From contig WFWY01000076.1 in NCBI GenBank assembly GCA_015490895.1, forward strand, positions 1 to 36,650: a stretch of 36,650 bases of DNA, written 5' to 3'. Shown in pieces: positions 15,412-17,251 of this stretch. A program made the position numbers and the translations under genes. Numbering within the stretch: the stretch's first letter is position 1; the number at the start of each line of letters is the position of its first letter. The stretch is from Thiotrichaceae bacterium (GTDB taxonomy: Bacteria > Pseudomonadota > Gammaproteobacteria > Thiotrichales > Thiotrichaceae). The notes under the pieces were generated by a model. The model had not been told where the DNA came from. It saw only the letters and a list, made by a program, of their open reading frames with translations, and did no database searches.

Positions 15412-15455
15412 GGCTGGATGGCAAACCGCTTAATCAGAATCGTCAGCTGGTTGTA

Positions 15456-15497
15456 TTTGAATTTGAATTTGAATTTGAATTTGAATTTGAATTTGAA
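15456..15497. repeat. Hexanucleotide microsatellite TTTGAA x7
   Basis: Seven perfect tandem copies of TTTGAA occupy 42 bp in the space between the convergent rimK and rpsI genes, about 45 bp past the R element. A multiple-of-three unit in an open frame would encode alternating Phe-Glu, but the surrounding frame has no family match, so I regard it as noncoding. Such a tract is prone to slippage and copy-number change. Confidence 0.9.
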
Positions 15498-15686: not shown

Positions 15687-16079
15687 TTAACGTTTCGAGA
15701 ACTGGGTTGCGCGACGTGCTTTGTGCAGTCCAACCTTTTTACGTTCCACTTTACGTGCATCACGTGTCAACAGACCTTCTTTTTTCAAATCACCACGTAA
15801 TGATTCATCATACTTCAGCAGTGCTCTGGCAATACCAAGACGAATCGCCCCTGCCTGACCACTGTCACCACCGCCTTTAACAGTAGCCACTATATCAAAT
15901 TTGTCATTATTATCAGTGACATCTAGTGGCTGACGCAGGATCATATGAGCAGTTTCACGCCCAAAATATTCTTCCAGTGTCTTTTTATTAATCGTGATAT
16001 TACCGCTACCCGGTTTCATGAAAACACGTGCTGTAGAAGATTTACGACGACCTGTTCCGTAGTATTGTGTGTCTGCCAT
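15687..16079 (-). CDS. rpsI: 30S ribosomal protein S9
   Basis: S9 is a small-subunit protein of the 30S head whose extended C-terminal tail reaches the P-site tRNA. The 130-residue product matches the family end to end: [16 protein letters not shown] at the start, [14 protein letters not shown] in the middle, [16 protein letters not shown], and the invariant basic C-terminus ending FSKR. Length equals that of E. coli S9. It follows rplM with an 11-bp gap and is closed by the terminator at 15592-15627, so the two form a two-gene operon. Confidence 0.98.
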
Positions 16080-16090
16080 TCTGATTTACC

Positions 16091-16519
16091 TTATATTTCC
16101 AGAAGCTGCGGTTGCTGAGCTTCATGCTTGTGCTCAGAACCCGCATATACTTTAAGTTTTCTGTACATTTCACGACCTAGCGCATTTTTGGGTAACATCC
16201 CTTTCACAGCCAGTTCGATAACACGCTCAGGTTTTTTGGCAATCTGCTTTTCAAAGCTGATTGACTTCATATTACCAATATACCCCGTGTGCTTATAGTA
16301 CATCTTGTCTTTTGCCTTGTTACCCGTTACACGAATCTTTTCGGCATTAATAATGACAATGTAATCACCGGTATCAACATGCGGTGTATAAATTGGTTTA
16401 TGTTTGCCACGCAGACGAGTTGCTACTTCGCTGGCTAATCTTCCCAATGTTTTCCCATCGGCATCAATTAAAAACCAGTCGCGTTTGACTTCTGCTGCTT
16501 TGGCACTGAATGTTCCCAT
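16091..16519 (-). CDS. rplM: 50S ribosomal protein L13
   Basis: L13 is an early-assembly protein of the large subunit. The 142-residue product has the family landmarks [39 protein letters not shown], the [17 protein letters not shown] segment, and a C-terminal [15 protein letters not shown]. Length equals that of the E. coli protein. It is the first gene of the rplM-rpsI pair. The start ATG is preceded by GTGGAGTC, and a promoter and a leader hairpin lie just upstream. In E. coli L13 represses its own operon by binding the rplM leader, so the hairpin here is a candidate for the same control. Confidence 0.98.
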
Positions 16520-16612: not shown

Positions 16613-16641
16613 ATTCTATTTGAATACGGTTTTAGACTCAA
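16613..16641 (-). promoter_or_regulatory. Sigma-70 type promoter of rplM-rpsI
   Basis: On the minus strand, TTGAGT (16636-16641) and TAGAAT (16613-16618) are separated by exactly 17 bases. The -10 matches five of six consensus bases and the -35 four of six. Transcription would begin near 16606, giving a leader of about 85 bases before rplM. Confidence 0.65.
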
Positions 16642-16740
16642 GCGATTATTCGTTGAGATTAGAACTTTAAACCTGCTTTCTTCTGTATCTTCCCAATCAG
16701 ATACACATATCACCTGCAGGGTATTTCACCGACAAACTCC

Positions 16741-16907
16741 TTAAGGAGCCTCTGAATAAGTCCGGTCGAATTTCCTGTGAGATGAAATTCGTCAGTTTTT
16801 TGATAGAAAAGTTAGCAATAGTCATTCTATTGGTCACTTTTATAGCGAAAAAATGGCGATATTTCAGCCTCAGGAGAACGATTGGGGCTTGATCAGAGTC
16901 TCCTTAA
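16741..16907. mobile_element. IS5-type MITE, 167 bp with TTAA flanks
   Basis: The left end TTAAGGAGCCTCTGA and the reverse complement of the right end, TTAAGGAGACTCTGA, start a terminal repeat matching at 19 of 23 positions. If the outer TTAA is the duplicated target, it fits the YTAR rule of the IS5 group, and the GGAG...AAGTCC ends resemble that group. Inside are an 8-bp hairpin (CGAATTTC/GAAATTCG, 16767-16791) and a second weaker one around CAATAGTCATTCTATTG. No coding sequence is present, so this is a non-autonomous element. Confidence 0.7.
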
Positions 16908-16926
16908 TAAGACATTTTTTCGAGAC

Positions 16927-16956
16927 AAAAAAAAGCACGATTCCGAAGAATCGTGC
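16927..16956 (-). terminator. Strong intrinsic terminator with TTCG loop
   Basis: On the minus strand GCACGATTC and GAATCGTGC form a perfect 9-bp stem closed by the stable TTCG tetraloop, followed by eight T residues. This is a near-ideal Rho-independent terminator. It ends the candidate small RNA below and would also stop readthrough from the M23 peptidase gene. Confidence 0.93.
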
Positions 16957-17008
16957 AATTACCACCAAAGGAGGATGGAGGAGTATCGATCAATCTCTCA
17001 ATCAATAT
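16927..17008 (-). ncRNA. Candidate small RNA with C-rich anti-Shine-Dalgarno stretch
   Basis: A perfect consensus promoter and a near-ideal terminator lie only about 60 bp apart on the minus strand, with no gene between them. The predicted transcript, starting near 17008, is about 80 bases. Its 5' part is AU-rich with GATTGAGAGATTGATCG, then come CTCCTCCATCCTCC and TTTGGTGG, then the terminator hairpin. The CTCCTCC and CCTCC stretches are complementary to Shine-Dalgarno sequences (GGAGG). This matches the mode of action of several known C/U-rich sRNAs, but the sequence matches no named family I recognise. There is no ATG in the predicted transcript. It is flanked closely by two MITEs (ending 16907, starting 17081). 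The start point is estimated from the -10 box. Confidence 0.72.
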
Positions 17009-17014
17009 GAGTAT

Positions 17015-17043
17015 ATTATAATTCTCTAATTTACTAATGTCAA
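17015..17043 (-). promoter_or_regulatory. Perfect consensus sigma-70 promoter
   Basis: TTGACA (17038-17043) and TATAAT (17015-17020) on the minus strand are separated by exactly 17 bases, all 12 positions matching consensus. Nothing downstream is a protein gene before the terminator at 16956, so it should drive the small RNA. Confidence 0.88.
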
Positions 17044-17080
17044 CATTGTTTTGGCCTTTTTTATTTCCCATGAAAAAATA

Positions 17081-17248
17081 CCAGGAGCCTGTCCAAGAAT
17101 AGGAAGCATAGCGAAAATCACAGGAGCATCCCAAGGTGAAATTATTGGAAGAGGCGAATAGCCGTTGCTATTTAACGATTTCACTAAGCTCAGATCAGGA
17201 TGCTCATGGGATTTGCAGTAGCTTCTTACTTTTCGGACAGGATCCTGG
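17081..17248. mobile_element. Intact S-family MITE-like element, 168 bp
   Basis: The left end CCAGGAGCCTGTCC and the reverse complement of the right end, CCAGGATCCTGTCC, begin terminal repeats that stay similar for about 28 bp (both reach GAAGC). Pairing continues inward: AGCATCC near 17124 recurs in inverted form near 17199, so nearly the whole element can fold on itself. AATAGC-CGTT-GCTATT makes a central hairpin. Its outermost bases resemble those of the R family. No coding sequence and no clear target duplication are seen. Confidence 0.68.
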
Positions 17249-17251
17249 TTT

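Follow-up and report, generated by a model that had tools for sequence, protein, structure and literature searches.

The Betaproteobacteria toxic sRNA family (RF02278), whose members inhibit the growth of E. coli when cloned, reportedly goes back to Kimelman 2012. RF02278 and the double-hairpin RNAs of B. cenocepacia (ncS03, ncS05, ncS27 and ncS62) share a CUCCUCCA start, a C/U-rich core with a central hairpin, a GGUGG arm and a short link to a U-tailed terminator, within ~60-90 nt. Burkholderia carries 3-5 homologues; overexpression of ncS27 slows growth, whereas antisense directed at the CU-rich end speeds it (PMC5688073). In Bordetella pertussis, the gene for S17 adjoins coq7, and the RNA represses a sigma-54 activator through two single-stranded anti-Shine-Dalgarno sites in an Hfq-dependent manner; S17S arises through RNase E cleavage of a 190-nt precursor, and a 27-nt stretch is fully conserved, with conservation reported in Betaproteobacteria only (PMC11722255). 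The Neisseria sRNAs NmsRA/NmsRB (RF02877; NgncR_162/163) are Hfq-bound tandem siblings between dsbB and lrp. They form three stem-loops and repress TCA-cycle mRNAs via two anti-Shine-Dalgarno motifs, one in a single-stranded link and one in the SL2 loop (PMC5362039; PMC9973317).

The window analysed here is the whole stretch of 36,650 bases. To judge from its sequence and that of its relatives, positions 17043 to 16927 of the minus strand hold what we take to be a real, conserved and unannotated sRNA gene of this known working type, with the following features in and around it.

17015-17043, minus strand: sigma-70 promoter, -35 TTGACA (17043-17038), 17-bp spacer, -10 TATAAT (17020-17015), 12/12 consensus positions
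16927-17008, minus strand: predicted sRNA of ~82 nt, start placed 7 nt past the -10 and 3′ end set by the T-run
16985-17006, minus strand: 5′ hairpin whose sequence differs among species, form always kept
16961-16984, minus strand: conserved core ACUCCUCCAUCCUCCUUUGGUGGU with two anti-Shine-Dalgarno motifs, from invariance in aligned loci and the consensus fold
16935-16956, minus strand: intrinsic terminator stem-loop GCACGATTC-TTCG-GAATCGTGC with a 9-bp stem, from sequence, fold and covariation
16927-16934, minus strand: U8 tail of the terminator (T8 in the sequence), a probable Hfq contact in a genome that has hfq
16613-16641, minus strand: rplM's own promoter, TTGAGT-17-TAGAAT, lying past the sRNA terminator and outside the sRNA
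16091-16519, minus strand: rplM, encoding ribosomal protein L13, the conserved gene downstream
15687-16079, minus strand: rpsI, next after rplM

Architecture and conservation of the unit

Read along the minus strand from 17043 to 16927, the unit runs from the promoter through ~24 nt, ACTCCTCCATCCTCCTTTGGTGGT and GCACGATTC-TTCG-GAATCGTGC to T8. The promoter is the sole full TTGACA-17-TATAAT consensus within the 36,650 bases, where dinucleotide shuffles yield a mean of 0.01 per window. On folding, the predicted RNA reaches -22.7 kcal/mol compared with -15.4 for shuffles (z -2.8). In the consensus fold, a small hairpin of the core, CC.CCA/UGG.GG, exposes the loop UCCUCCUU (16975-16968), a copy of the 16S anti-Shine-Dalgarno; it is the second of two motifs, after CUCCUCC, that both resemble the 16S tail. 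The stretch CTCCTCCATCCTCC at 16983-16970 (minus strand) occurs once in the window, even when 2 mismatches are allowed. Taken alone it is weak evidence because 0.33 exact or near matches are expected per window; promoter, core and terminator together exceed chance expectation. The original prediction, made from the letters alone, had already named the 12/12 promoter, the stem with TTCG loop and U8 (here at 16956-16927) and an anti-Shine-Dalgarno core, and all of these hold, the core with two motifs and kept in relatives. It had also placed no protein gene in the unit, which agrees with our rejection of one on either strand: the open reading frames through the unit are mechanical, and non-triplet indels among relatives break the frame. 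On the plus strand AAAGGAGG adjoins an ATG, but that frame is short and unconserved, and it was rejected as well.

Searched as DNA against relatives, the 126-bp unit gave matches across the family, all with a single architecture of promoter, variable 5′ hairpin, constant core and variable terminator. Twenty-seven loci were aligned, 26 of them found through similarity of the whole unit to the window; the set was restricted to loci with CCATCCTCCTTTGG, leaving out two variants (L025, L026) and one decayed copy (L027). Across this alignment CCAUCCUCCUUUGGUGGU and CCATCCTCCTTTGGTGGT are invariant. The terminator varies in sequence and keeps its pairing: 94.3% of cells are paired compared with 80.6% in shuffles, double changes occupy 57 cells compared with 13.6, and both-side compensatory changes occur in all 10 terminator pairs, for which 92% of cells are paired. 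The core helix gave no evidence of covariation in the same 27 sequences, where it is invariant except for one pair. Over 138 loci the 5′ segments have a mean fold z of -3.4 against shuffles, and 88% fold below -3 kcal/mol. Of 148 loci, 120 have a TTGAC 55-97 nt ahead of the core motif; at 17-bp spacing in these TTGAC-bearing loci, positions 2 (A) and 6 (T) of the -10 each stand at 0.86. Alignment in relatives, on which the original prediction had staked itself, finds promoter, core and terminator conserved, and its central proposal of an unannotated, independent sRNA gene is borne out by conservation of the unit in the family and in much of the class.

Three departures from the common layout were seen. 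The variant copies L025 and L026 (~1501-1554) precede rplM; their core reads CATACATCCTCCTTTGGTGG and lacks the first anti-Shine-Dalgarno motif. Outside the family, the -10 region behind a perfect TTGACA is often TATTAGAAxxT (GAAACT, GAAAAT), not TATAAT, which is possibly an extra regulator site. One Thiotrichaceae MAG (L099 5787-6024, same record as L163) carries three head-to-tail core copies ~100-120 nt apart, with a long T-run in the last copy only.

For the wider distribution, a covariance model of core and terminator (R1) was trained on loci with the exact 17-mer core. It matches 26 of 36 family genomes (E ≤ 1e-3), with none in genus g7 in this search, and the window's own genome has a single match to the model and to the unit. 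In a class-wide sample, 148 of 369 genomes and 112 of 272 genera match, spanning by our count 78 family codes, the weakest of which are uncertain. All 10 matches at E ≤ 1e-6 in a phylum sample belong to the same class. The exact 17-mer occurs in at least 117 stretches of the GTDB contigs; ~30 chance matches are expected in that collection, and some are visible (Bacteroidales, Latescibacterota, without terminator). Among the matches listed, most titles are Thiotrichales, Chromatiales, Sedimenticola, Thioalkalivibrio, Arenicella and other gammaproteobacteria. Phages, plasmids and E. coli genomes gave zero matches to the sRNA unit, and reading it as a mobile element was rejected.

Genomic neighbourhood

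The unit is closely flanked by two MITE-like repeats, which the original prediction had suggested may have carried or preserved it. The repeats themselves are real and multicopy: counting matches that span ≥140 nt with ≥80% identity, 1.48 Mb of the genome contains 53 for the left one (~16737-16910) and 14 for the right one (~17080-17250), and these totals include the copies in the window. A MITE-borne or MITE-preserved transcription unit nevertheless has next to no chance of being the right explanation. The congener L002 keeps a 98%-identical unit at the same locus with neither MITE, other relatives keep it at the rplM locus without them, and the unit was found once in its own genome. In L003 the left repeat occurs once, elsewhere. 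MITE cargo is thus refuted by the MITE-free relatives; the MITEs landed beside a pre-existing sRNA gene. The position of the gene invites another reading, in which the unit is a 5′ leader or attenuator of rplM-rpsI, beginning at the promoter and stopping at the terminator, with read-through feeding L13/S9 synthesis. The gene does lie on the same strand upstream of rplM in 67 of the 129 loci with room to judge, and when adjacent to rplM it is never on the opposite strand. We nevertheless regard a leader as very unlikely, because rplM has a separate promoter past the sRNA terminator and because the sRNA gene keeps its own promoter and terminator where it stands elsewhere. The equivalent TTGAGT-17-TAGAAT is found in the terminator-rplM interval of L003, L004 and L012. 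Many loci are free of rplM, including 26 in which the sRNA gene is flanked by queA and tgt, is oriented opposite to the two and keeps its own promoter and terminator, and pairing of the core to the rplM start is unremarkable. On the separate promoter and the many loci without rplM, a cis element fixed in the rplM 5′ UTR was rejected. What these loci point to instead is a gene that stands alone.

The queA-tgt position is a relocation common to one clade; such loci include Chromatiaceae and Thiodiazotropha records (e.g., L106, L158). Among loci with the gamma core, coq7 adjoins 28 and OsmC 15, mostly upstream. At the window locus the upstream gene is an M23 peptidase; coq7 and OsmC are absent there and present beside other carriers of the identical core. 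In the RF02278-bearing family considered below, rplM is not a conserved neighbour: it lies 3.8 kb to 94 kb from the sRNA in several genomes and on other contigs in others, and the loci there are coq7/OsmC-adjacent. Between rimK and rpsI, at 15451-15497, the window also has a tandem array of 7.8 copies of TTGAAT, possibly a phase-variable or slippage tract.

Kinship with RF02278 and other named sRNAs

In an Rfam search of the window, every family stayed below its cut-off. The best subthreshold scores were 30.5 bits for NmsRb (RF02877; cut-off 52), 26.8 for RF02278 (gathering score 50) and 23.7 for ncS16 (RF02866; cut-off 48). The statement of the original prediction that no named family is recognisable therefore stands at the level of Rfam cut-offs and falls short in that subthreshold relatives, RF02278 and NmsRb, exist. 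The RF02278 match is full-length (model positions 1-64), and the RNA has the layout of that family, in which a hairpin with a C/U-rich anti-Shine-Dalgarno core precedes an intrinsic terminator. RF02278 passes its cut-off in 2 of the 369 class genomes and is subthreshold in ~100, many at exactly the places matched by R1. A Gallionellaceae locus (L076) with the identical 17-mer core scores 51.8 bits against RF02278, enough to pass. In the family of G258, which we take as betaproteobacterial because RF02278 is, the model passes in 41 of 61 genomes, and coq7 and/or OsmC adjoins the sRNA in 29 of the 30 best loci; with L179, which has such a neighbour as well, this makes 30 of the 31 RF02278 loci examined. 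The beta cores are UUGUCUCCUCCACCUCCUCCUUUGGUGGAU and variants, and their arms CCACC/GGUGG and CCAUC/GAUGG form a compensated stem.

The window RNA resembles RF02278 and the double-hairpin RNAs in the start, core, arm, link and length given above, and the coq7/OsmC neighbourhood is common to other gamma carriers. It differs in a core shorter by 2 nt whose stem contains a U.U mismatch, in an extra 5′ hairpin on a separate -35/-10, in its usual place, either ahead of rplM or flanked by queA and tgt, and in number, having been found once in the genome against several homologues in Burkholderia. With S17/S17S it shares two single-stranded anti-Shine-Dalgarno sites and a terminator, whereas its consensus promoter lies directly ahead, ~7 nt before the predicted start, in place of a long precursor. 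The likeness to NmsRA/NmsRB lies in the three stem-loops, the two motifs and the probable Hfq contact; the core sequence differs, and tandem siblings were not found, the window's genome having one match. Burkholderia ncS16 is likewise a C/U-rich sRNA with a terminator, with a different core layout.

We place the window RNA with moderate confidence in a gammaproteobacterial branch of the RF02278/S17/double-hairpin sRNAs, the gamma and beta members probably sharing descent. Common descent is argued by the subthreshold RF02278 matches at the same loci, the bridging locus L076 and the shared coq7/OsmC neighbours. Confidence is moderate because the window locus is without coq7. Convergence would hold that CCUCC repeats arise in any anti-Shine-Dalgarno sRNA and that the gamma and beta RNAs originated independently; the motif is indeed short and functionally constrained, and the beta cores differ by ~2 nt and often have a perfect central stem. 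This is unlikely in our judgement, since the shared stretch exceeds the anti-Shine-Dalgarno itself (CCUUUGGUGG plus the spacing to the terminator), the Gallionellaceae copy bridges the two sets and both have coq7/OsmC neighbours. The strictness of core conservation, beyond what loose Shine-Dalgarno pairing needs, could also suggest a sponge or decoy, acting for instance on an RNA-binding protein or on a different sRNA, in place of an mRNA repressor. That function seems very improbable, as the core is without the GGA motifs of CsrA decoys, and direct repression of mRNAs is established for homologues that have both sites (PMC11722255, PMC5362039). The reading we favour, and consider likely from the sequence comparisons, is a stand-alone trans-acting sRNA gene of the gamma branch of the RF02278/ncS27/S17 lineage that would block mRNAs by anti-Shine-Dalgarno pairing.

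Most trans-acting sRNAs are conserved among close relatives only. Here a core of ~20 nt is kept near letter-for-letter in many families, and a family recorded as betaproteobacterial extends far into Gammaproteobacteria, which makes the 'betaproteobacterial' toxic sRNAs part of a much wider lineage. We lean slightly toward the view that one trans-acting sRNA gene is older than the split of Beta- and Gammaproteobacteria, with its core near-invariant since, and that a single anti-Shine-Dalgarno metabolic regulator operates across much of the class, unrecognised outside Betaproteobacteria. Among open-licence papers we found no published report of the gamma branch. Its carriers include the sulfur oxidisers Thiothrix, Beggiatoa, Chromatium and Thioalkalivibrio, in which sRNA annotation is almost nil, and the covariance model offers a ready means of finding such genes. 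It also raises the question of why the core is constrained far above the needs of simple anti-Shine-Dalgarno pairing.

Proposed mechanism and targets

By analogy with the described homologues, the RNA most likely acts in trans, with Hfq, by blocking translation at Shine-Dalgarno sites. Its own promoter would give an ~82-nt RNA ended at the intrinsic terminator. A set of mRNAs would then be bound at their Shine-Dalgarno sites by CUCCUCC and the loop UCCUCCUU, with Hfq as the probable platform, and 30S binding would be blocked; the window's genome has an hfq gene. By the same analogy the targets may be metabolic and transport mRNAs, so that uptake and central metabolism would be trimmed.

The original prediction had proposed a target search for Shine-Dalgarno pairing. 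Among 1,123 crude gene starts in 1.48 Mb, 62 pair with the core at ≤-20 kcal/mol, compared with a mean of 35.7 and a maximum of 61 for shuffled cores (n=25). The excess is slight, as for any anti-Shine-Dalgarno RNA. The top predicted target was nuoA, at -29.0 kcal/mol and at -25.5 in one congener. Over 18 carriers in the wider family its mean is -17.0, compared with -13.8 for the rplM control, so pairing is strong in the two closest genomes only. Given this and the modest enrichment, we claim neither nuoA nor any other gene as a target. The nuoA start itself (G000 contig C56, L245) has an unusually strong double Shine-Dalgarno, AAAGGAGGAGTTAGGAG, which pairs with both anti-Shine-Dalgarno motifs and recurs only in the closest genome.
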